DNA of 64,000 nt from Flavobacteriales bacterium (GTDB lineage Bacteria > Bacteroidota > Bacteroidia > Flavobacteriales > Schleiferiaceae): the NCBI GenBank assembly GCA_017795025.1, contig CP051243.1, positions 620,001 through 684,000 of the forward strand, written 5' to 3'. The notes beneath the pieces were generated by a model. The model was not told where the DNA came from and made no database searches. It worked only from the letters and a program-made list of their open reading frames with translations. This document shows positions 7,991-28,402 of the stretch, piece by piece (the first letter of the stretch is position 1; the number at the start of each line of letters is the position of its first letter). The translations under genes were made by a program, and so were the position numbers.

Positions 7991-8081
7991 AATCATTTGG
8001 ATGTTGTGGTGCCAAACGGAATTTACTTGTTAAGTTTAGAAGGAGTAAATTTCTCTAGTGTTTTGAAGATTATCATATCTC

Positions 8082-9638
8082 ATGAGAATTAGTTGGTTAT
8101 TAGCATTCTTCTTTTTTTGTTATTCGCTTTTAGGTCAAGATTGGTCCTTTACAACCTCCGATTTCGCTACAAGAGCTAGAGACAGCTACGATTTTAAATC
8201 AAAGCTGGTAAATGACTCGATTCTGTACGTCGCGGTTGAGGGCACCTCAAATGGCTATGGGGAGGATTATACGGATATTGCTGTAATTGATATTAAAACA
8301 GGTGTCGTTTTAAGGAAGCGACAGTTAAATGGTTTTGGTGCTACCCAATTGGTTTTAGGAATAGGGTATTTTGATAAAGTGGGATACCTAGTCGAATATG
8401 ACAGCATAAATGATATTGGTAATCCTTCTCGACTAAGGTATCGTAATTACCGATTCTACTCCTACAGAAATGATAGTTTGCTGTGGTCAGGCTCTGGTTC
8501 ACTTTCTACCCTAGGCTCTGGAATGCCCTTTAACGGTCATGTTCTAAGGGATTCATCAACTTGGTTTCAAGATCCTGTTACAAATCAAGCTTTCCGGATT
8601 AATCTCTTTACTGGAGATACGCTTGAAGATGTAAGGGTTAATATCCTTGCTCGACGAATGAATCTCGACACAAACTTAGTTACTAACCTCATTAGGTTAG
8701 ACTCGAAGTATGTTGTTTATAGTGGAGACACCATAATGACTTACGGAATAGAAAATTACATTGACAGTAACGGTTTATCACAAATAGCAGGGTATTCATT
8801 TGTTATCGATGCTATGACTTGTACAAATATTACCGGTTTTAAGTTACCAGCTAGACCAGTAGTATTTCGAAACTCGAACATCCAATTTGATGAAAGTAGC
8901 CAGGTAATTGATAGTACTAGAATTTTACGAAACAAGGGATATACACGGAGAGTCTTCGGTAAAGAAAGCGCAGCAGATGGATCAATCATTGATAGTATTT
9001 TAGTTATTGACTCACTGTATTATCATCCAAATATTGCACGCTTTGGACAAGATCAACCTTATAACTATGAGCTGTATAGAAACGGAAGTTACCTTGCCTA
9101 TGTTCAGTCTGTTACAGGACCATATTTCAGAGATACATTACTAGATAACAAGCATGCCTTGATTAGGCTTTACAATAATGGCGTAAAGCAATATGAGCTC
9201 AGACTTCTAGATACATTAACCAGAAATGGGGAAGAGAATACAGAAATCAGTCATGTTCATATTTTATCAGATGGCTCTTTAATCCTTATTATGGATGTTG
9301 GCGATGATACGCCCTATACGACTTCAAGAATCTTAAGGGTAAGCTCCGATGGCTCTCACGGACTATCAACTAAAGAGATCAAGGAGGCTGAGTTGGAAAA
9401 GAAACCTATAGCTATTTATCCAACGGTATTTGATAACTTTATTACCATTGAAGTTTTTGAAGAGGATGTGACTCTTTCAATTTTTAATTTATCTGGGGAG
9501 TCATTTTTTGAGACAACAATTAACGCTAATAGAACATTAGAAATCAATCTTTCAAATCTTCCTTCTGGACTGTATTTTATAAAGGCAGGTTCAATGAGAA
9601 AGGGTTCTACTTATACAATTAAAGTTTTTAAAAAGTAA
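8082..9638 (+). CDS. secreted T9SS type A sorting-domain protein
   Basis: 518 aa. Signal peptide of about 19 residues (ending SLLGQ), then a long beta-rich region without a recognisable enzyme domain. A C-terminal domain from about residue 440 (IAIYPTVFDNFITIEV, then FNLSGE, LSNLPSGLYFIKAG and a KVFKK tail) matches the T9SS type A sorting form. The body recalls the beta-propeller-like secreted proteins of Bacteroidota, with repeated patterns such as GYFDKVGYLVEYDS. The base composition looks somewhat richer in A+T than that of the neighbouring envelope operon, which may mean a different origin. Function unknown. Confidence 0.82.
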   Translation: MRISWLLAFFFFCYSLLGQDWSFTTSDFATRARDSYDFKSKLVNDSILYVAVEGTSNGYGEDYTDIAVIDIKTGVVLRKRQLNGFGATQLVLGIGYFDKVGYLVEYDSINDIGNPSRLRYRNYRFYSYRNDSLLWSGSGSLSTLGSGMPFNGHVLRDSSTWFQDPVTNQAFRINLFTGDTLEDVRVNILARRMNLDTNLVTNLIRLDSKYVVYSGDTIMTYGIENYIDSNGLSQIAGYSFVIDAMTCTNITGFKLPARPVVFRNSNIQFDESSQVIDSTRILRNKGYTRRVFGKESAADGSIIDSILVIDSLYYHPNIARFGQDQPYNYELYRNGSYLAYVQSVTGPYFRDTLLDNKHALIRLYNNGVKQYELRLLDTLTRNGEENTEISHVHILSDGSLILIMDVGDDTPYTTSRILRVSSDGSHGLSTKEIKEAELEKKPIAIYPTVFDNFITIEVFEEDVTLSIFNLSGESFFETTINANRTLEINLSNLPSGLYFIKAGSMRKGSTYTIKVFKK

Positions 9639-9845
9639 GAATTTATGCAGATAAGCTTTGGTTTTAACCATTAACGCATCGCCCTTCGAAGGTCATTTAT
9701 AAGAAGATATTTATTATTAAGGACTAAGGAAAAAGGCTAACTGCCTAAAATCAATAATATAGACCCTTTGAAAAAATAGGGACAGACAGATTTTGACTTT
9801 TTTTAAAAGTATTGTTTTAGGGAACCAACTTTAAAACTGCACATA

Positions 9846-9878
9846 AAAAAAGCCTTCTCCGTCTGAGAAGGCTTTTTT
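9846..9878 (-). terminator. terminator of tRNA-Phe
   Basis: A perfect 14-bp inverted repeat (AAAAAAGCCTTCTC and GAGAAGGCTTTTTT) with a 5-base loop begins 6 bp beyond the tRNA 3' end on the minus strand and ends in a T-run in that direction. Confidence 0.9.
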
Positions 9879-9884
9879 AGAAGG

Positions 9885-9957
9885 TGGTGCCACCAGGAAT
9901 CGAACCGGGGACACAAGGATTTTCAGTCCTTTGCTCTACCAACTGAGCTATGGCACC
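9885..9957 (-). tRNA. tRNA-Phe (GAA)
   Basis: The minus strand folds into a standard 73-base cloverleaf. The acceptor pairs GGTGCCA with TGGCACC and the discriminator is A. The D-arm reads AGCTCAGTTGGTAGAGC, the anticodon stem AAGGA/TCCTT encloses the loop CTGAAAA (anticodon GAA), and the T-arm contains GGTTCGATTCC. The 3' CCA is not encoded (CCT follows). A promoter lies upstream and a strong terminator directly downstream, so it is a single-gene transcript. Confidence 0.97.
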
Positions 9958-9992
9958 TTGCTTTTGAGATATTAACTCTCTTTAGCGGGGCG

Positions 9993-10022
9993 CAAATGTA
10001 AAAACTTTTACATTCGTGCAAA
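9993..10022 (-). promoter_or_regulatory. Bacteroidota-type promoter of tRNA-Phe
   Basis: On the minus strand, TTTG (10022-10019) is followed after 18 bases by TACATTTG (10000-9993). This matches the Bacteroidota sigma-ABfr consensus TTTG-N19-21-TAnnTTTG except for a spacer one base short. The expected start is about 30 bases before the tRNA. The spacer and -7 box contain the dyad AATGTAAAA/TTTTACATT. Confidence 0.75.
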
Positions 10023-10037
10023 ACATTTTTTCACGCT

Positions 10038-10790
10038 TTGACCGCAAAATATTCATTAACCGCGCCGCGTACCATTATCGATGCTGGCAATACGCGTATT
10101 AAAGTCGCTCAATACCAGAACCAAAGCTGCTTAAGTCTCGAGGTTTTTGAAGAACAAGAAAATTTCGAAAAATATTTAAATACCCTGCCCAGCGAGCAAG
10201 CCTGTATCTTTTCGAGCACCGGTGCTTGGAATTTCGAAGTGCTCAAAAGGCGTTTTACTATTTGTGTTGAATTAAGTCCGCAAACGCCATTACCCTTTCC
10301 CATCCTGTACACCACCCCCAAAACTTTAGGTAATGATCGCCGAGCCCTGGCAGCGGCGGCCCTCCGAACCTATCCGGGAGAGGACGTGCTGGTATTAGAT
10401 TTGGGGACTTGTTTAACAGCCGACTTTGTCGATGCTAAGGGAAACTATCATGGCGGAGCAATTGCTCCAGGTTTAAAGATGCGGTTTAAATCACTTCAGC
10501 ATTTTACTGCCGGTTTACCCTTAGTGGATTGGTCGGGTTTAAAATATCCCAACTTAATTGGAGACAGCACCGAAAATAGCATTCTGAGCGGAGTGGTGCG
10601 TGGTTATGCCTCCGAAATTTCTGCCTGGATCACACAATATGAAGAAGAAATCGGCGCTATTCGAACAGTTCTTACGGGAGGAGATGCCAAGACCTTGCTC
10701 CCGTGGTTGAAAAATGACATATTTGCACCTTCAAAATTCTTGCTGAACGGCCTTGATTACATACTTGAGTACCATCTCCAATCATTATAA
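10038..10790 (+). CDS. coaX: type III pantothenate kinase
   Basis: 250 aa. It phosphorylates pantothenate, the first step of coenzyme A synthesis, in the cytoplasm. All family motifs are present: DAGNTRIK (15-22, phosphate binding), TLGNDR (96-101), DLGTCLTADFVD (121-132, with the catalytic Asp121), GGAIAPG (139-145) and TGGDA (213-217). No ATG is available between the upstream stop at 9999 and the first motif. TTG at 10038 is the best start; it places the first motif at the usual distance. Its 3' end overlaps the outer-membrane protein gene, so it leads the envelope operon. Length is normal for CoaX. Confidence 0.95.
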   Translation: MTAKYSLTAPRTIIDAGNTRIKVAQYQNQSCLSLEVFEEQENFEKYLNTLPSEQACIFSSTGAWNFEVLKRRFTICVELSPQTPLPFPILYTTPKTLGNDRRALAAAALRTYPGEDVLVLDLGTCLTADFVDAKGNYHGGAIAPGLKMRFKSLQHFTAGLPLVDWSGLKYPNLIGDSTENSILSGVVRGYASEISAWITQYEEEIGAIRTVLTGGDAKTLLPWLKNDIFAPSKFLLNGLDYILEYHLQSL

Positions 10791-12096
10791 AGCAGTCGCA
10801 GTACTGGCCCTTACCTTATTTTGGGGCAGCTTACATGCGCAAACCAATTCGGTTTCACCTTATTCACGCTATGGCTTTGGCGATTTATACCATAGCCTTA
10901 ACGCCCGATATATGGGCATGGGCGGTGCTTCCCTCGCTACCCCCGATGGTTTAAATCTAAACTTTGGGAGTCCAGCGTCCTATACCAATCTTAATCTCAC
11001 CACCTTTAATGTGGGCTTTGAAGGAAGTATAATCCAGCAACAACAGGATTTACCTCCGGTGAACTTGCAAAATTCGCGCTCAGGTATGCGAAACCTTTCC
11101 TTTGGAGTACCCGTTCAAGATTGGTGGGGTTCGGCTTTAGCGATTCAACCTTATAGTTTTAAGGGCTATCAGATTCGGAGCTCTCGCAGGCTGGCAAGCG
11201 ATTCTACGGTTTTAATTACCGATGAATTTAATGGGGAAGGAGGTCTAAACTCCGTGATCTGGGGAAATAGCTTTGAAGTAGCCAAGGGGCTTAGCCTTGG
11301 GGTAAACATGCATTATATTTTTGGCTCCTTGAGAGAAAATAATATCGTCAACTTCGATGATTTTCGTTTTCTCGATACTCGCAGTGATCGCGAGAGTCAG
11401 ATCAGCAACTTCTATTTAAGTTACGGCTTGCAATACCGCTATCAATTACCACGCGATCGATTTATCGCCTTGGCAGCACGTTTTCAAAATAGTTCGAATT
11501 TGACTTCCCAAGACATCAACTTCGACTACACTATCGATGGAAATTTAGCCGTAGACACCCTCATCGGAGGAACCTCTAGTGAAGGAACCTATACCATGCC
11601 CTCCGAATTTGGTTTTGGATTGAGCTATGGTAAGATGATGGAAAACTCCAATCAAGCTTCTTGGGGAATCAATGCCGATTATGAAACTTATTCGGGTTCA
11701 GAATTCCGCTCTTCCATCGGCGGCAGCCCCTTGGTAGACGGCTATAAGATGGAGATGGGTGGATTTTTAACGCCCCGTTATACCTTCAAATCTTTGGAGC
11801 GAGGTACGGGCTTTTTCAACAACACCGAATATCGCTTAGGTGCCTTTTACGAGAAGACACCTTTAAACCTCTCAGCACAAGACTTGTATAATTATGGCAT
11901 CACTTTTGGACTGGGATTACCGATTCGTCAGCGCAACCTTGCTCCCGGCGAGTACAAAGTGAGCACAGTCAATATTGGAATAGTGGCCGGACAAAGAGGA
12001 ACCCTAGCAAACAATTTGATACGCGAGCAGTATATAAGTTTTTACTTATCAGTTACGTTTAATGATAAGTGGTTCATAGAATATAAATACCGATAA
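10753..12096 (+). CDS. outer-membrane beta-barrel protein, FadL/OmpP1-like
   Basis: 447 aa from TTG 10753; TTG 10765 is equally possible, and both overlap the end of coaX. A signal peptide ends at LHAQ. The mature start PYSRYGFGDL, then ARYMGMGGASLA and LNFGSPASYTNL, is typical of a Bacteroidota barrel family distantly related to FadL/OmpP1. Alternating aromatic and polar strands run to a C-terminal strand ending in YKYR. It is probably an outer-membrane channel of unknown substrate. The conserved place between coaX and a TPR/LptC pair suggests a role in envelope biogenesis, but this is inference. Confidence 0.8.
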   Translation: MITYLSTISNHYKAVAVLALTLFWGSLHAQTNSVSPYSRYGFGDLYHSLNARYMGMGGASLATPDGLNLNFGSPASYTNLNLTTFNVGFEGSIIQQQQDLPPVNLQNSRSGMRNLSFGVPVQDWWGSALAIQPYSFKGYQIRSSRRLASDSTVLITDEFNGEGGLNSVIWGNSFEVAKGLSLGVNMHYIFGSLRENNIVNFDDFRFLDTRSDRESQISNFYLSYGLQYRYQLPRDRFIALAARFQNSSNLTSQDINFDYTIDGNLAVDTLIGGTSSEGTYTMPSEFGFGLSYGKMMENSNQASWGINADYETYSGSEFRSSIGGSPLVDGYKMEMGGFLTPRYTFKSLERGTGFFNNTEYRLGAFYEKTPLNLSAQDLYNYGITFGLGLPIRQRNLAPGEYKVSTVNIGIVAGQRGTLANNLIREQYISFYLSVTFNDKWFIEYKYR

Positions 12097-12107
12097 ACAC
12101 CAGCAAA

Positions 12108-13523
12108 ATGAAAGCAACCCTTTACACCCTCGTACTACTCATCGGTTTGGGTGGATTGCTCAAAGCCCAAGACTATGGTACCGACAGTATTAGCTGTCGC
12201 GAAAACCTGTACATCTACTACGAACTAGCCAAAAAGAAGCAATACTTAGAAGCTTACGATAGCTGGCAAAAGGTAATTGATATGTGTCCAGGTTCTTCCA
12301 AGAACAACTTTATCTATGGGCCCTATATCGTTAAGGCGAAAATTGAGGAAGCCGAAAAGGCAAACGATACCGCCGCCGAGAACAAGTTCAAGAAAATGCT
12401 TCTAGATGTTTACGATCAGCGTAATGAAATATATCCTGGTCGTGAAGCGGACGTAGCCACACGTAAGGCATTAGATTACTTCCAGTATTTTGATAATAAT
12501 GCCAAAGCCTACGAACTCTTTAATAAAGCTTTAGAGATTGGTGGTCAGGAACAACCAGCCGCCTTTTACAACTTTTTCTTTGTGGCTGCCGCCCGCATGT
12601 TTAACGAAAAGGTTTTTGAGGTTGAAGATGTTTTTAGAGCTTATAACATCGTAAATGAGGGGATTGAGTATAACAATAATGCCCTTAACACCACCATCGC
12701 TGAACTAATTGTAAAGCGCGATACTAATGGTCTTGAGCTTTCAACCCAGGAGCAGAAGGATTTAGGAAAGGCCGAGCGTGAGTTGGAGCGCTACACAAAA
12801 GTAGAATCGAACATTGAGAAGATTTTAGCCCCAATTGCTACTTGCGACAAGCTGAACTTGATTTACAATGAAGAAAGTTTTGCCGCCAATAGTAAGGATA
12901 CCGTATGGTTGAGACGTGCGGCTAAAATGTTGCAGAAAGAGCGTAAGAACGAAGAAGGCGAATATGAGGATTGTACCGATAATCCCATCTTCTATAAAAT
13001 TGCCGAAACTATTCATAATATGCAGCCATCTGCACCATCCGCCAGAGCGATGTTTATTAGGTCATACCGTAATAACGACTACGCTAAAGCCAGTGGTTTT
13101 ATTCGCGAGGCGATTAAGTTTGAAATCGACCCTATTAAGCGTTCTTCCGACTACCTTAAACTAGCAGCTGTACAAATGAAGCGTGGTAACCTCTCAGCAG
13201 CGAAATCGGCAGCCTTAAATGCAGCGAACTTAGATCGTAGCAATGGAGACCCTTACGTGATGCTAGCTACCATTTACGCGGCAGCAGCCGGTACTTGTGG
13301 AAACAACGTATTTGAGAAGAATGCCGTTTATTGGGCAGCTATCAACAAATTGAACTATGCTAAATCAATCGATGCCAGTGTAAATAGTAAGGCTAATCGT
13401 TTAATTGCTGCTTACAAAAAGTCCTTGCCCGATAAGTCAATTATCTTCCAATTAGGTTATGTGGAAGGTGATTCCTACACCATCGGATGTTGGATTAATG
13501 AAACCATTACCGTTAGCTATTAA
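12108..13523 (+). CDS. periplasmic TPR-repeat protein
   Basis: 471 aa with a signal peptide (ending LKAQ, about residue 20). It is helical throughout, with TPR-like pairs near 26-60, 130-150 and 325-395 (AAVQMKRGNLSAAKSAALNAA is one). The C-terminus is a short beta-rich tail. It lies 11 bp after the barrel gene and its TAA overlaps the lptC ATG by one base (TAATG), so the genes are translationally linked. TPR proteins at this position may act as assembly partners for the barrel or for LPS transport, which is inference. The catalytic role is unknown and probably absent. Confidence 0.82.
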   Translation: MKATLYTLVLLIGLGGLLKAQDYGTDSISCRENLYIYYELAKKKQYLEAYDSWQKVIDMCPGSSKNNFIYGPYIVKAKIEEAEKANDTAAENKFKKMLLDVYDQRNEIYPGREADVATRKALDYFQYFDNNAKAYELFNKALEIGGQEQPAAFYNFFFVAAARMFNEKVFEVEDVFRAYNIVNEGIEYNNNALNTTIAELIVKRDTNGLELSTQEQKDLGKAERELERYTKVESNIEKILAPIATCDKLNLIYNEESFAANSKDTVWLRRAAKMLQKERKNEEGEYEDCTDNPIFYKIAETIHNMQPSAPSARAMFIRSYRNNDYAKASGFIREAIKFEIDPIKRSSDYLKLAAVQMKRGNLSAAKSAALNAANLDRSNGDPYVMLATIYAAAAGTCGNNVFEKNAVYWAAINKLNYAKSIDASVNSKANRLIAAYKKSLPDKSIIFQLGYVEGDSYTIGCWINETITVSY

Positions 13524-15645: not shown

Positions 15646-17445
15646 ATGAAGCAGATTTACTTAGGCTTAGTGCTTTTATTCTCCAGCTACACCGCTTGGG
15701 CTCAAGGCCTTTCCAGTCAGGAATTGTTAAACATTTTACAAGGGAATTATAATCCCAGTAGCTACAGCTCTTCTCAGCCTATCGATGCTTCCGATCAAAT
15801 ATCTTGCGAACTCATTAATATAATATCGGCAGATACTCTACATCAAAACCTGGAAACTTTAAGTGGCTTTGGAACTCGACATACCTGGTCGGATACCCTA
15901 AGTAATACGCGCGGTATTGGTGCCGCAAGACGCTGGATCGAATCGCGCTTTCAATCCTATAGCGCCCGCAATGAAAATAGACTCCGGAGTGGTTTTTTCA
16001 GTTTTGATATTACCAATAATTCTTGTGGTGATCTCTTTAATACGAAGAACGTAATCGGCGTGTTACCGGGGCGTGATACAAGTGATAAGTCAGTCATATT
16101 AATGATGGCTCATATGGATTCGCGTTGCGAGGGCCGTTGTGATACAGCGTGTTATGCACCAGGTGCAGATGATAATGGCTCAGGAACGGTATTGGTAATG
16201 GAGCTAGCTAGAGTACTTAGTCGGTACACTTTTAATCACACCTTAGTATTTATGCTTACCAATGGTGAGGAACAAGGGCTTTTGGGAGCAAGGGCCTTTT
16301 CGGATTACTGTTCCAATAATGGAATTTCAATAAAGGCGGTTTTAAATAATGACATTGTTGGCGGAACTATTTGTGGGCAAACCGCATCTCCTCCGGGTTG
16401 CTCTCCTGCTGGTGATATCGATAGCATTCGGGTGAGAATGTATGGAAACCCTTTGTCAGACCGAAATCCCTATCAGGGTTACGCGCGGAGCGTAAAGATG
16501 AATTTTGATGAAAAGTTGCGTCCGAACCTCTTTGTAAAGCCTGCGATTGAATTGGTAAATCAGGAAGACCGATCGGGTCGTGGTGGCGACCATATTGCTT
16601 TCCGCGAGAACGGTTTTCTAAATGTTCGATTCACTTCAGCTCATGAACATGGTAACGGAAACCCCTTAGGGACACCAAATTATCAAGATCATCAGCATAC
16701 GTCATTAGACGAAATTGGCATTGACCTAGATAGTAATGGCACTATTGATAGCTTCTATGTAGACTTTAATTATCTGCGACGTAATGCTCTGATTAACGGG
16801 ACTTCTGCCGTAATTATAGATGCAGCGCCAGAGGTTCCTAGTTTTACTTTGCATGATGAGGCAGGAGGACTGCGACTGGAAGTGATGGATTCCGATTTGG
16901 CTTTTGAGTACCGGGTTGGGGTTAAAGGTCCGGTTGGCGGTGAATATGATAGTTTATATCGTTTTCAGGGACGAAACTTTGTGATTCCGGGCTTGCAGGC
17001 GAACCAGTTGTATTTGATTGGTTTAGCAGCTTTGGATAGCAATGGATTAATGAGTCCTTTTACCCAGGATGATCGCGAAACACCACAAGTTTCCACACCT
17101 CCGGGGACGACTGATAATCTGCCTTATAGTTTTAATTGTATGCAGGTAACTTTACAGGAGTTGCCAGAATTTAGGCAGTCGGGTCTCGAGGTAATGCCTC
17201 CTCGTCCTAATCCAAACCACGGTCAAAGTGAGTTGGTATTTTGGGTTCGCGACCAGATTTGGGAAGGTCCTGCGGTTTTAAGGGTTTTTGATTATCAGGG
17301 ACGAGAGGTGTATCGCCAAGACTTAAACTTAAAGTACGGGGCAAGCAGTGTGAATTACAATCACCAAGGCCGTGGCGGTGTATTTTTCTATTACATCGAG
17401 CAAGCTGGGAAAAGGTCTGTGCTGCAGCGTATGTTGGTGAAGTAG
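15646..17445 (+). CDS. secreted M28 zinc peptidase with T9SS sorting domain
   Basis: 599 aa. The signal peptide ends at AWAQ (20). The M28 domain (about 60-385) keeps all co-catalytic zinc ligands and the base: His156 (MAHMDS), Asp175 (GADDNGSG), Glu208/Glu209 (NGEEQG), Asp236 (NNDIVG) and His351 (HQHTS). A fibronectin-like region follows, then a C-terminal domain (from about 513: LEVMPPRPNPNHG, FDYQGREVY) of T9SS type A form. It is expected to be an exported aminopeptidase that degrades peptides outside the cell. Two extra cysteines beside the first zinc motif (CEGRCDTACY) may form disulfides. Confidence 0.92.
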   Translation: MKQIYLGLVLLFSSYTAWAQGLSSQELLNILQGNYNPSSYSSSQPIDASDQISCELINIISADTLHQNLETLSGFGTRHTWSDTLSNTRGIGAARRWIESRFQSYSARNENRLRSGFFSFDITNNSCGDLFNTKNVIGVLPGRDTSDKSVILMMAHMDSRCEGRCDTACYAPGADDNGSGTVLVMELARVLSRYTFNHTLVFMLTNGEEQGLLGARAFSDYCSNNGISIKAVLNNDIVGGTICGQTASPPGCSPAGDIDSIRVRMYGNPLSDRNPYQGYARSVKMNFDEKLRPNLFVKPAIELVNQEDRSGRGGDHIAFRENGFLNVRFTSAHEHGNGNPLGTPNYQDHQHTSLDEIGIDLDSNGTIDSFYVDFNYLRRNALINGTSAVIIDAAPEVPSFTLHDEAGGLRLEVMDSDLAFEYRVGVKGPVGGEYDSLYRFQGRNFVIPGLQANQLYLIGLAALDSNGLMSPFTQDDRETPQVSTPPGTTDNLPYSFNCMQVTLQELPEFRQSGLEVMPPRPNPNHGQSELVFWVRDQIWEGPAVLRVFDYQGREVYRQDLNLKYGASSVNYNHQGRGGVFFYYIEQAGKRSVLQRMLVK

Positions 17446-18779: not shown

Positions 18780-19592
18780 CTAGATCCTGGAATAGCCATC
18801 TACGGCGCCGCGTACACTACCATGCTTCCGCAGTAACGCTTCTGCTTCCTCAGCCATAAGCCCGGTTTCCTGCATAACCATCCGTGTACCACGATCTACC
18901 AGCTTATTATTGTTCAATTGCATATCTACCATTTTATTTCCTCGAACACGTCCGAGCTTAATCATAATGGAGGTAGAAATCATATTGAGTACCAGCTTTT
19001 GAGCCGTTCCTGCTTTCATACGCGTAGATCCGGTAATAAACTCAGGGCCAACAACTACTTCGATTGGAATATCAGCTTGTTCCGCTAAGTTTGAGTTTTC
19101 ATTGCATACGATGCCTACAGTAAGTAAACCTTTTTCTCGAGCAGTCTTTAATCCACCAACCACATAGGGCGTAGTGCCACTCGCGGCAATGCCTAAGATA
19201 GTGTCATTACTTTTGGGTGCATATTCTTCAAGATCTCGCCAAGCACCGTCAATATCATCCTCAGCGTTTTCTACCGCCGTGCGAATAGCAGCATCACCTC
19301 CCGCAATGAGCCCGACTACCCAATCAGGATTTGCTCCAAATGTAGGGGGAAGCTCTGAAGCATCTACTACGCCTAATCTTCCGCTGGTTCCTGCTCCTAA
19401 ATAAAAGAGCCGACCGCCATTTTTCATTCGACCGACAATAGCGTCAACAGCCTTTTCAATTTGGGGGATTACCCGAGATACGGCGATAGGCACGCTGCGG
19501 TCTTCCGCATTGATGCCTTCCAAAATATCGAGGGTCGACATTTTATCGATATTATCGTACCGACTATCGGATTCTGTGGTCTTTAGGCTCAC
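18780..19592 (-). CDS. murQ: N-acetylmuramic acid 6-phosphate etherase
   Basis: 270 aa, slightly shorter than E. coli MurQ. It cleaves the lactyl ether of MurNAc-6-phosphate to GlcNAc-6-phosphate and D-lactate in cell-wall recycling. The SIS-domain phosphate loop YLGAGTSGRLG (64-74) and DASELPPTFG with Glu80 match the catalytic acid region, and Glu111 (NAEDD) matches the second essential acid. Further family blocks are GIAASGTTPYV and TGSTRMKAGTAQKL. No other recycling gene (anmK, nagZ, ampG) lies beside it. It is convergent with and directly abuts the small membrane protein gene. Confidence 0.94.
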   Translation of the reverse strand: MSLKTTESDSRYDNIDKMSTLDILEGINAEDRSVPIAVSRVIPQIEKAVDAIVGRMKNGGRLFYLGAGTSGRLGVVDASELPPTFGANPDWVVGLIAGGDAAIRTAVENAEDDIDGAWRDLEEYAPKSNDTILGIAASGTTPYVVGGLKTAREKGLLTVGIVCNENSNLAEQADIPIEVVVGPEFITGSTRMKAGTAQKLVLNMISTSIMIKLGRVRGNKMVDMQLNNNKLVDRGTRMVMQETGLMAEEAEALLRKHGSVRGAVDGYSRI

Positions 19593-19629: not shown

Positions 19630-21093
19630 ATGCGCAAGGTACAATTGATTTTGGGCTTCTTACTCTTTTGCAGCCAAATTTGGGGGCAAGGTTTTGAGCG
19701 AAGCTTCTCGGTGAACAACGGAGAGTGGATTTCGGATTGCGATTCTTTAGGACCGGACTTATGGAAGCTTACCTTTAGCTCTTACCATGGCGGCTCAGGG
19801 CCTAATTACGGCATTGTTAGTCAGGCGATTTACGATAAATCAAGCAATTCTCTGGGCCCGACTAAGATCGTAGAGCGGCTTCATCAAGATAATCGCTATC
19901 GACTGCCTAGGCTAAACATATCTAGGTATAAAGGGGTGAGTTTAGACCTTTATGATGCCTATCCTTTCCTCAACGCTTCCTGGATTGACTTTAGAGACAC
20001 AGGCCAGCAGAAATTTGTGGACATTCCTAGGATGGCCGTTTCTTTTAATTGGCAATATTGTCGGGATACGGTTTTCGGCTTGTTTAATGATTTGGGCTAT
20101 AAAGATTGGAGCGATAATCGCTTGGGAAATGATACATTCTTCCTTTGCAGGATGATCCCTTATTCCCCAAACTTTGAGGTACTCGATACTTTTAAGCTTG
20201 AATTGGATTTAAAAAGCCCCGGTACTTTTTTAATGGCTTCTGATGCTCGCAGCTTCGAATACATCAATGACAGTCTGCATTATCATTACCGTAGAGGAAA
20301 GCCGCAAGCCGATACTTTTTATGTAGATACCAATGCCTTTTACGGAGCACCAAAAGCTCGTAATCAATACAATGCGCATTTTTCCAAAAATCATCGTTTG
20401 AATCTAAACTACCTACTGGGTAAGTTTCAAAAGATAGAGCATGATTCAGGTTATCGCCTAATCGAAACGCTGCGAGATGGCTCCACTTTGCTAAGAGATG
20501 ACGTGGTTTATCCCCATCATAAGATTGCTGTGCCGCGCAGCACCCCTTGGTATCCTCATAATTTGAAAATCAAGGACCAGGGCGATGGGATTTACACCTT
20601 TGCCTATCGGAGTACTCATTTTGATAGCGTGTATTTGGTTCGCACAGAAAATAAACAAATTGCAAGCCAGCGTCTTTTTCTTCGCCCGGCAAATTCAGAC
20701 TTTATTTTAGAGAATGTCCTCAGTTTTAAGGACGGCTCTTTTCTAATGCTAGGTAAGGTGAATTATGTTTATAATCCAGGATGGATGGAGGGCTATTCTA
20801 AGCCGCATTTGGTTTACATCGATAAAAATTGTTCCTACCAATGGATGGAAGAGGAAGATGCCTTTCAATTGCATTACGATGATGAGAATAGTCAACTGCG
20901 TATTTTTTATCCCGAGCTGGATGCAAACCTAAATTACCGCATTCTTGACGCTAAGGGACGAGTTTATAAGGAAGGGCAATCTCAACCAGTAAGCCCTATC
21001 GACCTCCCTCACTGGAGGACGGGGATTTATTATCTCCAGTTATGGGTTGAACAAGAATCCTATATTGGAACTAAACCCTTTTTAAAGAATTGA
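19630..21093 (+). CDS. tandem secreted paralog 1, T9SS-like C-terminus
   Basis: 487 aa. First of five consecutive related genes. The signal peptide ends at IWGQ and the mature protein starts GFERSFSV, the family's hallmark start. The body is beta-rich with many aromatic residues and no known catalytic motif. A shared block near 370 reads KDGSFLMLGKV. The last 70 residues (NYRILDAKGRVYKEG, then HWRTGIYYLQLW and a tail ending KPFLKN) resemble a T9SS type A sorting domain lacking the usual YPNP start. It is divergent from murQ by 37 bp. It is the most divergent member of the array together with paralog 2. Function unknown. Confidence 0.8.
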   Translation: MRKVQLILGFLLFCSQIWGQGFERSFSVNNGEWISDCDSLGPDLWKLTFSSYHGGSGPNYGIVSQAIYDKSSNSLGPTKIVERLHQDNRYRLPRLNISRYKGVSLDLYDAYPFLNASWIDFRDTGQQKFVDIPRMAVSFNWQYCRDTVFGLFNDLGYKDWSDNRLGNDTFFLCRMIPYSPNFEVLDTFKLELDLKSPGTFLMASDARSFEYINDSLHYHYRRGKPQADTFYVDTNAFYGAPKARNQYNAHFSKNHRLNLNYLLGKFQKIEHDSGYRLIETLRDGSTLLRDDVVYPHHKIAVPRSTPWYPHNLKIKDQGDGIYTFAYRSTHFDSVYLVRTENKQIASQRLFLRPANSDFILENVLSFKDGSFLMLGKVNYVYNPGWMEGYSKPHLVYIDKNCSYQWMEEEDAFQLHYDDENSQLRIFYPELDANLNYRILDAKGRVYKEGQSQPVSPIDLPHWRTGIYYLQLWVEQESYIGTKPFLKN

Positions 21094-21095
21094 GC

Positions 21096-22547
21096 ATGAG
21101 GTTAAAAGAAATTATCATATGCTTCATTCTTTCGAGCTCCTTTCTTTTTGGGCAGGGCTATGGTCGCATTGTGGGTAAGGACTTCGCAAACTCAATCGAC
21201 AGTTTAACCTATTTAGGGGATGGAAACTTCCGACTTCGATTCAGTTATGTTTGGCAAGGATCTGGTCCTGATCATGGTAGGGATTTTTACGCCATCTACA
21301 ATCCTGTTAAAGACAGCCTAGGTGTAAATCATATTATTAGTAGATGGAGCTCTGCTACACACGACTATAGCAGGTGGTCAATTAAGTTAAGTGAGACCAA
21401 CTTTTTATTTACACGTCAAGGGTGCTGTTCTATAGGACGCAGACAGGGTACTTCCATCCGCCATGTCGATTTAAGCCGCGATTATACATTGGAAGAATAT
21501 CATATGGCTTTTCAGAGTGGGTCCTTCGATCCTCTTTACTGCAATGATTCCATTTTTTTCCTGCGCAGCATTGATTCTACTCACTTGTTAACCAACCCTT
21601 ATAGACAGTTTAGCAATAATTCGCATAAGATATTGTGCTTTTATGATCTGGCTATGGATAGTCTGATGCCTTTGGATACCATCAATTTTGGAATCAACTT
21701 TAAAGCACCGGGAACGCTGCTATTCGATTCGGCTAATCAGCAATTCGAGTTACTCTACGATTCGCTGCAGTTCTTCTTTAAAAGGGGAGATACCCTGCCT
21801 CGACTTAGTCGCATTCATCGGGGTTCCTTCTGGCATGGAGGACGTTACCGGTCTTATTGGACGCATGGTGAAATGGAAACCCATACCGTAAATGAGTGGA
21901 GAAATCGCTATCTAAAAAATGATTCTTGCTGGACGGTAGAGGATACCCTTGGTTACCAGTGGGTTGAGCTTTGTATGGATCGCAATGGGCAGGTGAGGAT
22001 GAACATTCCGTTTGCAGCTCCAGAATTACCTTTTGAAGGATATCAAATTATTAGAGGAGGTAAGCTAATAAAAGGAAGTAAGTTTTATATAGCTTCTCAC
22101 GAGAGTAATGGCTCCATATATCTTCTGGAGTACAAGAATGATTCGCTAGTTCACGCAATGTACCTCAAGGAGAAACCTCACAATATGATAATCAATGATG
22201 TATATAAAAATGAGGATGGATCATTTTATTTAGTGGGTACTGTGACCCGCAGTGTGCCGATTTTTGTAAAGGTTGATGCGGATGGCAGCTATCAGTTGAA
22301 CGAAAAGGATAAAGAGATTTATTTCTTCCTGAGTCAGTATGGAAAGGTATTTCCATTTTTAGAGGAACCCTATTTAGATTATCGTTATCGATTAACAAAT
22401 AGTTCTGGAGCGACGATAAAAGAAGGAGAAATTATGGGTTGCGATGGTTTAGCTACTTACCTCTTAAGTCCTGGGTTATATAACGTTCAGTTATGGTATC
22501 AGAATAATGGGCAGTATCTAGGTCAAGGAAGATTTATAAAACCATGA
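21096..22547 (+). CDS. tandem secreted paralog 2, T9SS-like C-terminus
   Basis: 483 aa from the ATG at 21096, 2 bp after the previous stop; an in-frame TTG at 21090 would overlap that stop. The signal peptide ends at LFGQ and the mature start is GYGRIVGK. It carries the family block EDGSFYLVGTV near 370 and the C-terminal form YRLTNSSGATIKEG...SPGLYNVQLW, ending GRFIKP. It has a Cys pair (QGCCSIG) that the other members place differently. The stop overlaps the next ATG (ATGA), so the genes are translationally coupled. No known domain; probably a secreted surface protein. Confidence 0.8.
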   Translation: MRLKEIIICFILSSSFLFGQGYGRIVGKDFANSIDSLTYLGDGNFRLRFSYVWQGSGPDHGRDFYAIYNPVKDSLGVNHIISRWSSATHDYSRWSIKLSETNFLFTRQGCCSIGRRQGTSIRHVDLSRDYTLEEYHMAFQSGSFDPLYCNDSIFFLRSIDSTHLLTNPYRQFSNNSHKILCFYDLAMDSLMPLDTINFGINFKAPGTLLFDSANQQFELLYDSLQFFFKRGDTLPRLSRIHRGSFWHGGRYRSYWTHGEMETHTVNEWRNRYLKNDSCWTVEDTLGYQWVELCMDRNGQVRMNIPFAAPELPFEGYQIIRGGKLIKGSKFYIASHESNGSIYLLEYKNDSLVHAMYLKEKPHNMIINDVYKNEDGSFYLVGTVTRSVPIFVKVDADGSYQLNEKDKEIYFFLSQYGKVFPFLEEPYLDYRYRLTNSSGATIKEGEIMGCDGLATYLLSPGLYNVQLWYQNNGQYLGQGRFIKP

Positions 22548-24064
22548 TAAGAATGCCGCTAAGAATATTAAAAGGAAACTTGCTTTTCATTTTTGCTTTT
22601 ATCAGCTCTGGCATACTCGCTCAAGGGTTCGAGCGAACCCTCAATTTAGATACCCTCGATGGAAGGGTAACTAGTCTTAGAGTAGTCAATAACAATATTC
22701 TTGAGCTGGATGTTACGGTTTGCCGTTCGGGTCCGGGCCTAGATGGTTGTAGGTATTTAAAAACATGGTATTACATTAAAGAAGATAGTTTAGGGGCCCA
22801 GAGGAGCTATAGCAGTTCCTTTTTTGGAGGAAGGTCTGATCAGCTTTTGGTCAAAGACGAATTATGGTTAAACTTCTATCATGATAATACATCTTGCGGC
22901 GGTCGAAGCTTTCTCAATATGAGTGTTTTAAAGCTCGGGAATCAATCGGTCAAACTCCCTGATTATTATGACTGGACCTTTATTTCTGGAGCTTATAATG
23001 CCCTTTACCTAAATGACACGATTTATGCCTATCACGGACAGTCGGGCTGCATGGAGGACTCCCCAGGAATAAATGGGAACGATACTCTTTACTACTATTG
23101 GGTCGACATTGAGAAAGGCGAAATCAACTATTTAGACACCATTGCCTTAGGCTTTCCCATGTACCTTCCAGGAAGCTTAATTCACGATTCAACTACAGGG
23201 CAAAACGTGCTATTTTATGATAGTCTAAGGATATACCTTAAGCCTGCTCGTAGTTCCCCCGATTCTACTGTAGTGGATTCGAGCCTCTGGGAAATGCCTT
23301 TTGGAGACCACTGGTCTGGAAACATGGAAAGACACTATTGGGCCTTTACTTATAATCAAGGGGCCTATCGCAATCAGCGGGTAGTCTGGGACACATTGGG
23401 AGCCTATCGAGTGGATGTTTTCACGGATTGGTTTGGGAAATCAGGTCAAGTGGTATATCCCTTAGTTCCAGATTATCCAGATTATGAAGACATTGGGGTC
23501 CTCAAGATAAACCGCGAATCCGATTCGGTGCTTACTTATGGCATAATTGGAGCCCAAAGGTCAAGTCAGTCTATCGATTTATATCGTTTGGTTAATGAGA
23601 AAGTAGTAAAGCACAGTCGTTATGCAGCCCCGCCTGGAGTAACTTACTTTCTTAATAGTGTAACCAGCGATGCTGAGGGTAATTTTTACATCGCTGGAAA
23701 TCTTTCGTTAAGAGGGAACCGTAGCTATTGGTTTTATGACCCAGATGAATATGGCTTGTATAATATTCTATTGATAAAAGTAGATGCAAATGGTATGAGC
23801 CGAGATTACACCAAAGGTGATCCTTTTAGCCTACAGCAAGATCTGATTACGCGCGATGGCACCGCAATCAGTTTTAAAACCCAGGATCCCAATGAATTGG
23901 TTTCCTATCGATTATTAGATGTTTCGGGTCGGAGCTATGCCGCCGGAAGAACTTATTCAGGGGCTTTAATCAATACCTCCACATTAAAAAAAGGGCTCTA
24001 TTACCTTTCCTTGTGGGGGGAAGAAGGGAACTATATTGGACAACAAGCTTTTATAAAGAACTAG
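22544..24064 (+). CDS. tandem secreted paralog 3, T9SS-like C-terminus
   Basis: 506 aa. The ATG overlaps the previous TGA. After the leader (ending ILAQ) the mature start is GFERTLNLDTLDG. Together with paralogs 4 and 5 it forms the closer subgroup: they share INDS/VNNNILELD near the N-terminus, a CR(Y)LK(T/A)WY(Y/F)I block, YLNDTIYAYHG, LYYYWVD, a GQNVLFYDSL(R/K)IY strand and EGNFYIAGNL. The C-terminus (YRLLDVSGRSYAAG, KKGLYYLSLW, ending QAFIKN) is sorting-domain-like. Only 2 bp separate it from the next ATG. Function unknown. Confidence 0.8.
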   Translation: MIRMPLRILKGNLLFIFAFISSGILAQGFERTLNLDTLDGRVTSLRVVNNNILELDVTVCRSGPGLDGCRYLKTWYYIKEDSLGAQRSYSSSFFGGRSDQLLVKDELWLNFYHDNTSCGGRSFLNMSVLKLGNQSVKLPDYYDWTFISGAYNALYLNDTIYAYHGQSGCMEDSPGINGNDTLYYYWVDIEKGEINYLDTIALGFPMYLPGSLIHDSTTGQNVLFYDSLRIYLKPARSSPDSTVVDSSLWEMPFGDHWSGNMERHYWAFTYNQGAYRNQRVVWDTLGAYRVDVFTDWFGKSGQVVYPLVPDYPDYEDIGVLKINRESDSVLTYGIIGAQRSSQSIDLYRLVNEKVVKHSRYAAPPGVTYFLNSVTSDAEGNFYIAGNLSLRGNRSYWFYDPDEYGLYNILLIKVDANGMSRDYTKGDPFSLQQDLITRDGTAISFKTQDPNELVSYRLLDVSGRSYAAGRTYSGALINTSTLKKGLYYLSLWGEEGNYIGQQAFIKN

Positions 24065-24066
24065 AT

Positions 24067-25539
24067 ATGCGGTCATTTTTTCTCATCCTGTTTTTATTGC
24101 CTGAACTTTTTAGTTCTGGGCAAGGTTTTGAACGATTTCTATCCGATGAAATAAGAGTGGAAGTTACCGGAATGAAAATGATCAATGACTCCATTATAGA
24201 GTTGAATTTTCAGGGAAATGGGGGTATGGGAAGTGGTACTCGTTACTTGAAAGCATGGTATTTCATAAATCAGGATAGCTTAGGTACACTGTATACTTTT
24301 TTCGATGCTACTTTCCCGGGTTCTTATGATTTCATCCGTACAGAAGATGGTACGCTTTTAAATTACTATAATAATTCGCATGACTGTCGTAGCCAGTATT
24401 ACCTTAATATGCGGGTATTAGACTTTAATAATGCAGGTTACCACGATTTTCCTAAAGAAGCTCACCCTTTTATAGCGGGCTCTTACAATCACCTTTATCT
24501 AAATGATAGCCTTTTTGGCTACCATGGTAAGAATTTCTGTTATGAGCAGGGACACGACCTTAGCCAAAATAACAAGCTATACTATTATTACTACAATTAC
24601 CGCACGGGTTCTATTACTTATCTGGATACGATTAGTCTTCCTTTTACCATGCGCGAAGGTGCTAGTTTATTAAGGCATCCAAAAACAGGTCAGAACATTC
24701 TTTTTTACGATAGTTTGAAAATTTACATGAGTCCAGGAAGTTCTTCCTACGACTCCATTATTAGTGAACCCAGTATTTGGGTTAAAAATGGCGAGCGGTT
24801 GTATGCCAATAACTTGGATCGACATTATGCAAAGTTTACCTATAGCAGGGGACAAATACGTTTTTTCCGAGAGGTGCTTGATACGCTTGATGCCGAGTGG
24901 GTTACCCTAGTGGTAGACTGGTTCGACAGCCTGTATATCAAGCCGTTTCGCCGATTAGCTGGTTATGAAGACTATTGGCCAACTCAAGGCTCCGTAGTAC
25001 CTTGTTTAGAAGATTCCATTGATGTTTATAAACTGGACCAGAGCGAAAATTACAGTCAGCGTATATTGCTGCTAGCTCTTCGAAATGGGGAGCTTTTACA
25101 GGAAAGAACATTTATCCCTGGCCCCACGCGTACCATGCACATTAAAGGGATAGGAATGGATTCTCAGGGCAATTTTTACCTCGCGGGAATCTTGGTTGCC
25201 AGGCCCTATATTGGTCGTTACTATAATGACCCCAATCGAATGGGTTTTAAACGAAATGTTATAATTAAAATAGACTCCACGGGCTATAGTCGTGAAATGC
25301 CGAGTCAACCAAAAATGAGTTTACAAACTGGGCAAGATGCTATTAGTTTTAAGATTGATGATCCCTTCCAAGAGGTTGATTATCGAGTACTTGGCCTAGG
25401 AGGCAAGGTTTATAAAGAAGGAAGGGAAGTTTCAGGAGCATGGATTAGCATTAATAGCCTTAACAACGGTTTGTATTATTTTCAGGTATGGTCCAGCGAT
25501 GGTGCTTTGATAGGGCAAGAGCCTTTTGTAAAGAACTAG
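24067..25539 (+). CDS. tandem secreted paralog 4, T9SS-like C-terminus
   Basis: 490 aa from the ATG at 24067; a longer frame from 24013 would run 52 bases into paralog 3 and is unlikely. The leader ends SSGQ and the mature start is GFERFLSDEI. It keeps the subgroup blocks INDSIIELNF, YLNDSLFGYHG, LYYYYYN, GQNILFYDSLKIY and QGNFYLAGIL. The C-terminal domain ends GLYYFQVW...QEPFVKN. It differs by losing the Gly-Cys pair after the first long strand (GGMGSGTRYLK here versus GPGLDGCRYLK in paralog 3). It is 2 bp before paralog 5. Confidence 0.8.
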   Translation: MRSFFLILFLLPELFSSGQGFERFLSDEIRVEVTGMKMINDSIIELNFQGNGGMGSGTRYLKAWYFINQDSLGTLYTFFDATFPGSYDFIRTEDGTLLNYYNNSHDCRSQYYLNMRVLDFNNAGYHDFPKEAHPFIAGSYNHLYLNDSLFGYHGKNFCYEQGHDLSQNNKLYYYYYNYRTGSITYLDTISLPFTMREGASLLRHPKTGQNILFYDSLKIYMSPGSSSYDSIISEPSIWVKNGERLYANNLDRHYAKFTYSRGQIRFFREVLDTLDAEWVTLVVDWFDSLYIKPFRRLAGYEDYWPTQGSVVPCLEDSIDVYKLDQSENYSQRILLLALRNGELLQERTFIPGPTRTMHIKGIGMDSQGNFYLAGILVARPYIGRYYNDPNRMGFKRNVIIKIDSTGYSREMPSQPKMSLQTGQDAISFKIDDPFQEVDYRVLGLGGKVYKEGREVSGAWISINSLNNGLYYFQVWSSDGALIGQEPFVKN

Positions 25540-25541
25540 AT

Positions 25542-27038
25542 ATGCGTTCATTTTATCTCAAGTTATTTTTAATTACCGGACTCCTAACTTCTGCCCAAGG
25601 TTTTGAGCGAACGTTACCGCTTGAGGTAGTTGATGCCAAACCCCAGTCCATTAGGTTTATGAATGACAATATCCTAGAATTGGATTTTCAGAAATGTTAT
25701 TCTGGACCTGGTTTAGATGGTTGTATTGAATGTAAGGCCTATTACTACATTAAAGAGGATAGCTTAGGTGCTCTTAAGTCTTACTCTGAAACCCATTATG
25801 GTGGTTATTTTAATCAAGTTCTTTACCGCGACAGCATTTGGTTAACTTATGGTAATGATTATTCAGGTTGTGGAAGAAGAGCATGGATGAGATTCGAAGC
25901 CTTAGACCTAAATGATTGGGACTTTAAATATCCACAAGGAATCGATTTCCCTTATTCCACTGGGATTTATCAACATATTATAATTGATGATAGTATTTAT
26001 GGCTACCACGGAAAGCCGCTATGCAAGGGGATAAAAGATAATTTCTATCAAAATGATACACTTTATTACTACCGTATGGATTTATTTGAATCCAAAGTAG
26101 AATATCAGGATACCCTTATTTTACCCTTTACCATGTATTCTCCAGGCAGTGGTTATCACCTTGAATCTACTGGTCAGAATATTATTTTCTACGATTCCGC
26201 TTTAGTTTATCATAGCCCAGGTCGCTCTGTACCCGATTCTGTTGTGATTGATAGTACTATTTGGGGTGTTCTCGGGTGGAAGCCCAATCGGGGTAATTGG
26301 CTTCGACATTATCAGGCATTTACGCGTAGAAACGCCATTCCAAGGCATCACCAGACGTTTTGGGATACTTTAAATTATTATCAAGTGGATCGCTGGATAG
26401 ACATTATGGGAAATGAGGTGTATGAATATCTCCCTAAAATATCTGGATATCAGGATAGGGGTGATTATAAGTCATACCTTTTTAGTAGGCAGGGGGATAG
26501 TATAATTAACATTGGCATTTTTCCTTCCGAATCTTCGTGGCAGCGAATTGAACTTTTTAGAATAGTAAATGGAGCTGTAGTCAATCAGGTCTCTTATGTA
26601 GCTCCTACCAATAAAACATATAGCTTTCAAGCAATAAGTAGTGATAGCAAGGGTAACTTTTATTTAGCCGGGAACTTGAAAAAGAAAGGGAATAGGAGTT
26701 ACTGGTACCCCGATCTCAATTCTTGGGGCTCCTACAATGTATTGCTTCTTAAAATTGACGAACATGGCAACAGCCGTGACTTTAAACAAGAGGATCTCTT
26801 TAGCTTAAAAACATACCCGGATAGAAATTCTACTTTCTTTATGGAATTCAAATTCCGTAATCCACGCGAGTTAATGAACTATAAAATCATTGATGTAAGC
26901 GGTCGTACTTTTTGGGAAGGGACAGCCTTATCCGCAGATGTTTTAGATTTAAGTAACCTTGAAAAAGGGCTTTATTATTTCTTGCTTTGGGATTCGAAAG
27001 ATAACTACGTTGGGGAACAAGTGTTTCAAAGGCCCTAA
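25542..27038 (+). CDS. tandem secreted paralog 5, T9SS-like C-terminus
   Basis: 498 aa from the ATG at 25542, 2 bp after the previous stop. The leader ends TSAQ and the mature start is GFERTLPLEVVDA. It is closest to paralog 3: both have SGPGLDGC, VVDSSLW/VIDSTIW and GNRSYW(F/Y) blocks. It keeps KGNFYLAGNL and a C-terminus ending in GLYYFLLW...EQVFQRP. It ends the array. A weak 6-bp hairpin (27043-27060) follows the stop and may be the terminator. No known domain or catalytic motif; it is probably secreted through the T9SS like its relatives. Confidence 0.8.
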   Translation: MRSFYLKLFLITGLLTSAQGFERTLPLEVVDAKPQSIRFMNDNILELDFQKCYSGPGLDGCIECKAYYYIKEDSLGALKSYSETHYGGYFNQVLYRDSIWLTYGNDYSGCGRRAWMRFEALDLNDWDFKYPQGIDFPYSTGIYQHIIIDDSIYGYHGKPLCKGIKDNFYQNDTLYYYRMDLFESKVEYQDTLILPFTMYSPGSGYHLESTGQNIIFYDSALVYHSPGRSVPDSVVIDSTIWGVLGWKPNRGNWLRHYQAFTRRNAIPRHHQTFWDTLNYYQVDRWIDIMGNEVYEYLPKISGYQDRGDYKSYLFSRQGDSIINIGIFPSESSWQRIELFRIVNGAVVNQVSYVAPTNKTYSFQAISSDSKGNFYLAGNLKKKGNRSYWYPDLNSWGSYNVLLLKIDEHGNSRDFKQEDLFSLKTYPDRNSTFFMEFKFRNPRELMNYKIIDVSGRTFWEGTALSADVLDLSNLEKGLYYFLLWDSKDNYVGEQVFQRP

Positions 27039-27187: not shown

Positions 27188-28402
27188 CTACACCCGCTCC
27201 AATAAAGCCATATAAAAACCATCACTCCATTGTGATGGGTTTACGCGTTTCTGATGATGGAGCTTAAACTCGGGATGTTGGGCTAAAAACCGTTCTACCT
27301 GATCCTCATTCTCCGATCGTAAAATGCTGCAAGTCGCGTAAACCATTTTACCACCTTTCTTGAGCATTTTCGAATAATCCTCTAAAATATCTGCTTGTAT
27401 CTTCCGCACCCGGTCGAGGTGCTCGGGCTTAAGCTTCCACTTGGTATCAGGATTGCGTTTTACCACTCCCGTACCAGAGCAGGGAACATCCAATAGCAGT
27501 CGGTCTGCCGAATCTTGTAAGCGTTTGATGCTTTTGGCATTCTCGATCGGACGGGTCTCAATATTGTGAACGCCATTGCGACGGGCGCGCTTTTGCAGCT
27601 CTTTCAGCTTCCAAGCTTCCACATCCATAGCGATAATCTGACCTTTATTTTCCATTAGGGCCGCAAGGTGTAAGGATTTACCTCCGGCACCAGCGCAAGC
27701 ATCAATCACGCGCATGCCAGGTTTAACCTCTAAAAAAGGAGCAATCATCTGACTGCCGCCATCTTGCACCTCGAAATAGCCCGCCTGAAAACTGGGCAAG
27801 CGAAAAGTATTCTTACGCTTCTCCAAAACAATCCCCACCTCATTCGCCTCTAGCGGCTTGGCCGAACAGTTTTCATCAGCCAACTGTTTTAATAGGGCCG
27901 AGCGATTGGTTTTAAGGGTATTGGTGCGTAGGAATACATCGGCCGGAATATTAGAAGCATGTGCAATTTCGGGCCAGGCCTCACCTAACTCCGATTCGGC
28001 TAGTTCGGCTAACCAATCGGGCCAACTTTCGCGTACGGCTAAATGGCTTTCTAGTTCTTTAAAGCGAGCTTCGATATCAATACCTCTTACCGTATCAAAT
28101 TGCGACCAATCCTCGGGAAGATGATAACCTTGCCATTGCCACCAAATGCCAAATAATCGATAAAGTTCCTTGCGCTTTAAGCTGGGTTCTTTGCCATAAA
28201 GCTCCCAAAGTAAACGCCACCAACGAACCATTTCATAGGTGCTTTCGGCAATAAAACCCCGATCGCGAGCGCCCCATTTAGGGTTGCGCTTTAAAATGCG
28301 TTCAATAACCTTATCGGCGTAATAGCCCTTGCCAAAGGCTGTTTCCAGCGCTTCGATAACGGCCGCAACCAAATTTTTATGTAAACGTGGACCTTGTTCC
28401 AA
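27188..28402 (-). CDS. RsmB/NOP-family RNA cytosine-5 methyltransferase
   Basis: 404 aa. A NusB-like helical N-terminus is followed by a Rossmann methyltransferase domain: SAM motif I DACAGAGGKS (234-243), motif IV DVPCSGTG with Cys308, and motif VI YATCSI with the catalytic Cys358. The two-cysteine mechanism forms m5C in RNA, in E. coli RsmB at C967 of 16S rRNA. The exact target cannot be assigned from sequence; RsmB and RsmF relatives share these motifs. The gene lies 2 bp downstream of the fused E1 gene in the same direction, so they may be co-transcribed. Confidence 0.92.
   Translation of the reverse strand: MEQGPRLHKNLVAAVIEALETAFGKGYYADKVIERILKRNPKWGARDRGFIAESTYEMVRWWRLLWELYGKEPSLKRKELYRLFGIWWQWQGYHLPEDWSQFDTVRGIDIEARFKELESHLAVRESWPDWLAELAESELGEAWPEIAHASNIPADVFLRTNTLKTNRSALLKQLADENCSAKPLEANEVGIVLEKRKNTFRLPSFQAGYFEVQDGGSQMIAPFLEVKPGMRVIDACAGAGGKSLHLAALMENKGQIIAMDVEAWKLKELQKRARRNGVHNIETRPIENAKSIKRLQDSADRLLLDVPCSGTGVVKRNPDTKWKLKPEHLDRVRKIQADILEDYSKMLKKGGKMVYATCSILRSENEDQVERFLAQHPEFKLHHQKRVNPSQWSDGFYMALLERV

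Follow-up and report, generated by a model that had tools for sequence, protein, structure and literature searches.

A tandem array of genes for a predicted exported beta-propeller family with variable copy number in a Flavobacteriales genus

Gene content and organization

The subject of this analysis is a row of five genes, hereafter the array, at positions 19630-27038 of a stretch of 64,000 nucleotides from a Flavobacteriales bacterium (GenBank assembly GCA_017795025.1, contig CP051243.1, positions 620,001 to 684,000); the whole of this stretch is referred to as the window. The five open reading frames lie on the forward strand and encode proteins of 487, 483, 506, 490 and 498 amino acids (aa), and the junctions between them are, in order, a 2-bp gap, a 4-bp ATGA overlap at 22544 and two further 2-bp gaps, just as in the original prediction of five tandem, coupled paralogs. 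Each member is composed of a putative signal peptide cut before a glutamine (Q), a core of ~390 aa and a tail of ~75 aa.

In the first gene, m1 (19630-21093), the leader occupies 19630-19686, the propeller-like core 19687-20862, and the tail, which resembles those recognised by the type IX secretion system (T9SS), 20863-21093. The same three parts follow in m2 (21096-22547; leader 21096-21152, core 21153-22316, tail 22317-22547), for which the 483 aa are counted from an ATG, an alternative TTG start being possible 6 bp upstream, and in m3 (22544-24064; leader 22544-22621, core 22622-23824, tail 23825-24064), m4 (24067-25539; leader 24067-24120, core 24121-25314, tail 25315-25539) and m5 (25542-27038; leader 25542-25595, core 25596-26798, tail 26799-27038). 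Promoter- and terminator-like sites occur at the array at chance level, and co-transcription of the five genes is therefore read from their spacing. An Rfam scan of the window returned a distant tRNA alone.

Relatedness of the five members

All ten pairs of members are homologous along their length, m1 and m2 to m3-m5 included (25-43% identity; Z 9.8-50.8, each global alignment being compared with 100 shuffles), and Z remains at 6.3-50.0 for the cores alone, once 25 residues are cut off at the N-terminus and 85 at the C-terminus. As a single query m3 matches m5 (E 2.9e-131), m4 (1.5e-92), m2 (1.2e-17) and m1 (4.1e-16). The identity matrix agrees with the proposal that m3-m5 form a closer subgroup (33-43%) from which m1 and m2 have diverged further (25-29% for any pair that includes either of them). 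The mature start proposed as common to all five is found, as QGFER in m1, m3, m4 and m5 and as QGYGR in m2, and the segment SGPGLDGC does come and go, being present in m3 and m5 only (SGPNYG in m1, SGPDHG in m2). Two further motifs hold in part: the block DG/GNFY(L/I)AG is degenerate in m1 (DGSFLMLG) and m2 (DGSFYLVG), and the ending (A/P)F-x-K-N/P is seen in m1, m3 and m4 but not in m2 (RFIKP) or m5 (VFQRP).

Predicted fold of the core

Neither Pfam nor NCBIfam has a family that covers the core, either in the five members of the window or in the 14 members from this genome and its relatives that were also searched, in keeping with the earlier statement that the family has no name. Against the sequences of solved structures the best match had an E value of 0.021 and was to a lipase tail. 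AlphaFold models, for which the input was an alignment of the 14 members, gave a predicted local distance difference test (pLDDT) of 74.0 and a predicted template modelling score (pTM) of 0.69 for the whole of m3, and 75.9 and 0.76 for the m1 core. The m3 core model contains ~28 strands. Foldseek found 144 (m3) and 345 (m1 core) solved chains at E <= 0.001, with best values of 1.5e-8 and 1.3e-8, and the best VIA matches reached Z 10.4 for m3 (288 residues, 5.2 A) and 12.4 for the m1 core (301 residues, 6.0 A). The VIA matches listed include EMC1, WD40 proteins, YncE, BamB, NanA and CylK, and nearly all are, as far as we recognise them, presumably propellers. The core is thus predicted to be one beta-propeller with radial four-stranded blades, a propeller by its fold that matches no named enzyme or propeller family of Pfam or NCBIfam.

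Several of the fold neighbours are enzymes (NanA sialidase, an endosialidase, L-rhamnose-alpha-1,4-D-glucuronate lyase and CylK), and the array could encode secreted glycan-active propellers, for example lyases or sialidase-like proteins, whose substrates have diverged and which together serve as a small nutrient-acquisition set; the conservation of two aspartates and one near-invariant arginine in the core is in its favour. However, searches with the core against Pfam and NCBIfam enzyme families gave chance-level rows only, even at E 10, the readable neighbouring genes are not carbohydrate genes, and just three core columns are invariant among the 14 members (Q1, D127 and D167 in m1 core numbering), one of which is the Q at the cleavage site. 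So few invariant positions speak against a shared active site, and we regard an enzymatic role as doubtful.

Leader and C-terminal tail

In the alignment the Q directly after the hydrophobic leader is invariant in all 14 members, and in the m3 model the leader is predicted as a helix. A Q in this position corresponds to the Q-rule for signal peptidase I substrates of Bacteroidetes, as given in excerpts of the source (PMC5837995), and the QGFER start is therefore in part a general feature of the phylum. The QGFER codons were considered as a possible anchor for recombination, and this was rejected as their same-codon frequency (0.42) was not raised over that expected from usage (0.38); among same-residue pairs in the tail the frequency was 0.47 against an expected 0.39.

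The T9SS-like C-terminus of the original prediction is weak but present. In a protein search with TIGR04183 the tails of m1, m3, m4 and m5 gave E values of 1.2e-4, 0.0028, 0.014 and 0.014; that of m1 scored 21.9 bits as a protein and 24.6 bits in a genome search, the cut-off being 23, and those of m3, m4 and m5 scored 15.4-17.6 bits in the protein search and stayed under the cut-off in the genome search as well. The m2 tail was assigned through its alignment with the other members. Profile-profile comparison of the tails with three above-cut-off tails from the same window gave a P value of 5.7e-5 and a probability of 66%. In the m3 model the tail has six strands over residues 428-505, with blocks at pLDDT 78-91 from residue 441 on, and is predicted to form a C-terminal beta-sandwich as in T9SS type A cargo. 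The host genome carries SprA and PorV, with scores of 2581 and 454.9 bits against cut-offs of 200 and 250, respectively, together with 122 TIGR04183 tails at E <= 0.01, of which 115 lie above the cut-off.

We consider it likely that the array proteins end in a T9SS type A sorting domain of divergent sequence and are exported by this route. Like type A cargo (TIGR04183 / PF18962), the members have a tail of the same size and place and a final F-x-K, and their G-x-Y-Y, found close to the end, is similar to the PxGxYVV motif described in the excerpted text of PMC5445135; they differ from it in that four of the five tails fall under the cut-off and in having neither a PNP start nor a KxxxK end. 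Elsewhere in the genome, outside the window, four T9SS-tail matches follow one another on the minus strand (G000:C1 894036-901085), possibly a further tandem cargo group. Two other matches are repeated with the same scores and spacing at 4219-13496 and 3387802-3397079 of C1, also outside the window and near both contig ends; the assembly may therefore carry a terminal repeat of roughly 55 kb.

Distribution in related genomes

Copy number varies in related genomes, as had been proposed: members were found in four of the seven genomes of the genus, with five copies in G000, five in G003, three in G002 and one in G005. With m3 as the query, four of 59 genomes matched, all of one genus; with m1, seven of 88 genomes of the family matched, four from the genus and three through the tail only. 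A profile of the 14 members, run on the 59 genomes, gave these same 14 as its whole-length matches, the other matches listed being C-terminal. Searches with a core profile, in which at most four candidates were scored per genome, found whole-length matches only in G000, G002, G003 and G005 among 395 genomes of the order, and only in G000 among 395 genomes of the phylum. A scan of genome contigs gave two loci, apparently those of G003 and G002. Among the searched genomes the family is restricted to one genus.

Short partial matches to the core profile were returned in the order by seven genomes of other genera and by G006 (E 2.9e-4 to 0.0098), and in the phylum by G159, G417 and G421 (best E 3.9e-5, model positions 24-114). 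Those of G417 and G421, which belong to another family of the phylum, lie in frames of ~790 aa (E 3.9e-5 and 4.0e-4). Such matches outside the genus we read as shared blades or chance.

The chromosomal site

The arrays of all four genomes adjoin a divergent gene on their 5' side, in the window at 18780-19592 on the reverse strand, which we take to be murQ-like; the convergent gene 3' of the window array (27188-28402, reverse strand) is presumably an RNA methyltransferase. The leader of the first gene is separated by 37 bp from murQ, whose frame extends into it in G005 and G001. The methyltransferase gene is the 3' flank in G000 and G005; it lies elsewhere in G003 and on a separate contig in G002. 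As a similar repeat is found at the ends of two G002 contigs (L016 1-240 and L044 3820-4415), the three-gene array of that genome probably adjoins the methyltransferase gene and is complete.

The site is also found without an array. In G004, murQ and the methyltransferase gene are separated by a clean gap of 45 bp. In G001 there is a relic of 91 bp, made up of 30 bp of upstream DNA followed by 61 nt from the start of the gene, which is 90% identical to the start of the G005 array in a region where the flanking genes of the two genomes are 90% and 93% identical in DNA; nothing recognisable of an array gene was found beyond these 91 bp, and the relic is best read as the loss of an array gene. 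In G006 the site holds ~0.9 kb (L046 about 5800-6600) resembling, on visual inspection, a decayed transposase gene. Upstream in the window lies an exported gene (15646-17445) that we assume to be peptidase-like and that also stands beside murQ in G001, G003, G004, G005 and G006.

Exchange of cores and conversion of gene ends

The leader, core and tail of the members were compared separately. The leader of the first gene is 63-79% identical among the four arrays, with BLAST matches over 58-80 nt at 78-88%, in one pair over 29 nt at 90%, a conservation that may be held by the adjoining murQ promoter. In G005, whose one array gene is G5_1, the core pairs with that of the second G003 gene (G3_2) at 35% identity, against 17% with the other first genes, and the core data reject a grouping of G5_1 with the other first genes (approximately unbiased test, p-AU 0.0003), a grouping that was named after the leader matrix had been seen. 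The tail was rejected as evidence of a chimera: its alignment keeps a clade of G3_2 and G5_1 possible (p-AU 0.097), and the conflict over G5_1 therefore rests on leader versus core. The simplest reading is a deletion that would have joined a first-gene leader to a second-gene core.

A different discordance is seen between G3_3 of G003 and G2_2 of G002: their cores share 92% identity, their tails 74% and their leaders 33%. The shared tract (~nt 60-940, ~880 bp) is 88-100% identical in DNA in 40-base steps and 95-97% in 500-column windows, and outside it identity is ~70%, with one isolated step at 92%. The synonymous divergence (dS) is 0.178 over the 286 codons of the tract, 0.967 over the 22 codons of the leader and 1.643 over the 175 codons that follow the tract. 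As a control, the other alignment of G002 with G003 (93.5 kb, sampled from 796 kb and 640 kb of the two genomes) was divided into 810 overlapping 500-column windows, for which median identity was 76.2% and the maximum 89.8%, none of them reaching 92%. Because dS in the tract is so low, and the gene ends and the 810 control windows are far more diverged, we conclude that the core moved between the species of G002 and G003, or into both from a third, after their divergence.

Both of these are metagenome-assembled genomes, and one of the contigs is just 9.3 kb, so that the near-identical core might be ascribed to an error of assembly or binning. However, the tract falls short of 100% identity in the 500-column windows, its identity shifts by degrees within an open gene, the murQ genes on these contigs are 75% identical in DNA, and the two records bear different assembly names; we consider such an artefact very improbable. 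A viral vehicle for the transfer was rejected, m3 having no relative among viral contigs and the G3_3 core no match in phages or plasmids, in searches made with one query each and in collections from which records close to the genome of the window may be missing.

Strict BLAST among the 14 genes found matching gene ends within relatives, between G3_1 and G3_3 (102 nt at 93%), G3_2 and G3_3 (101 nt at 90%) and G2_1 and G2_2 (40 nt at 95%), in genes whose cores are <40% identical in DNA, and none in 20 codon-shuffled controls. Judged from these short tracts, the tails of the relatives have undergone local gene conversion. Homogenisation of whole tails in G003 was rejected, since a tail clade of G3_1, G3_2 and G3_3 is excluded (p-AU 0.005) by the position of G2_2 among them. 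In the window the sole such trace is at the m3/m4 junction (24035-24135, forward strand; the end of m3 with the leader of m4), which shares 76% identity with the m4/m5 junction (25510-25610) in a stretch of 101 nt and represents the footprint of a tandem duplication. The members of the window are old, with no recent exchange among them.

The description of the family as locally expanding stands in so far as copy number varies, but it also drops, to one copy, a relic or none, and in relatives cores have been exchanged between species and gene ends converted. The suggestion of phase selection found no support: the array has no homopolymer of at least 8 and no 2-4-base unit in at least 5 copies, hence no slippage tract, and no sizeable tandem array, its tandem repeats being just two in number and tiny and its inverted pairs weak; no search for a recombinase was made.

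It may be asked whether selection for diversity is needed at all, as the array could represent the old, near-neutral divergence of redundant orphans, with a leader kept by the murQ promoter and one accidental recombination. Across species only the leader of the first gene is alike, and it lies close to murQ, whose frame enters it in G005 and G001; one genome retains only a relic and two have none, and the window members give no recent exchange. Yet all 14 members are uninterrupted frames, and therefore purifying selection acts; the exchanged tract has a nonsynonymous divergence (dN) of 0.013 against its dS of 0.178, and events of several kinds have been found, namely core exchange, tail conversion in two genomes and duplication at a junction. 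On balance, divergence of this undirected kind is an unlikely explanation.

Discussion

The explanation that we prefer, with a probability of roughly 0.55, is that the array represents an unnamed family of exported propellers, probably displayed by T9SS and ligand-binding rather than enzymatic, in a row of genes with rapid turnover. The five genes would be transcribed as a unit and encode exported proteins that all belong to one family, the precursor leaving the cytoplasm by its signal peptide, which would be cut before the Q, and most likely crossing the outer membrane by T9SS through a divergent type A C-terminal domain. The part displayed or released would be one beta-propeller of ~390 residues, acting as a ligand-binding module (an adhesin or a recognition protein) rather than as an enzyme. 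Turnover of the row, by tandem duplication, deletion, core exchange between species and tail conversion, would keep the export ends alike whilst the propellers diverge to ~20% identity, perhaps under selective pressure from prey, host, kin or phage.

A number of points weigh against this explanation. The exchange and the conversion were found in the metagenome-assembled genomes G002 and G003, outside the window, and strict BLAST found no recent tract between any two members of the window. Four of the five tails are under the curated TIGR04183 cut-off, and that of m2 is not found by TIGR04183 in either the protein or the genome search. Foldseek TM-scores are low (0.15-0.35) and the root mean square deviations of the VIA matches high (mostly 4-8 A), so that the assignment is to propellers in general rather than to one kind, blade number or lineage, and the two invariant aspartates could be catalytic. 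A conserved scaffold with variable loops was rejected, column identity being 0.217 in predicted strands and 0.215 in coil.

The nearest precedents, as far as the excerpted texts of the sources go, are found in Porphyromonas gingivalis, in the exchange of T9SS surface domains (PMC5266723) and, for a propeller joined to a tail, in PorZ (PMC5121618). The latter resembles the array members in having surface propellers followed by a T9SS C-terminal beta-sandwich; however, PorZ has two propellers and is a single, essential component of T9SS (PMC5121618, in part), whereas the array encodes tandem paralogs with one predicted propeller each, has no sequence match to PorZ and is dispensable, being absent from three of the seven genomes of the genus. 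In variants of the surface proteins Kgp, HagA and PrtT the export ends are kept, internal domains are exchanged and the mosaic departs from the genome tree, as described in the same excerpts (PMC5266723), which is also what the array suggests. There the exchange is between strains of one species and involves known adhesin and protease domains (PMC5266723, in part), whilst here it concerns an orphan propeller family in a tandem row and species that are ~75% identical in DNA. The polymorphic toxin systems likewise have recombining modules beneath a constant export part, but the array has no toxin domain and no immunity genes, and it is the middle that is exchanged rather than the C-terminal tip. 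The leucine-rich repeat proteins of Flavobacterium psychrophilum form another variable surface set, according to part of PMC8400371. No description of the array family was found in the full-text literature on T9SS with tandem paralogs, propellers, conversion or recombination, subscription papers lying outside its scope.

A bolder version would see at the murQ site a recognition repertoire specific to the genus, consisting of variable propeller genes whose cores are interchangeable between constant leaders and tails and are passed horizontally between species; the combination of propellers would then mark or protect a lineage, through kin recognition, evasion of phages or predators, or the binding of partners. 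We regard this as speculative and improbable.

Bacteroidota export very many proteins by T9SS, some 120 tails being present in this genome, and much of this cargo is without a known role. The array offers a compact family, restricted to one genus, with a measurable record of birth, death and core exchange at one site, and so makes of an "unknown surface protein" a case in which the evolution of a repertoire can be tested. If it is the propellers that are swapped, selection is likely to act on binding specificity, and cores whose kinship is known could be used in screens for ligands.

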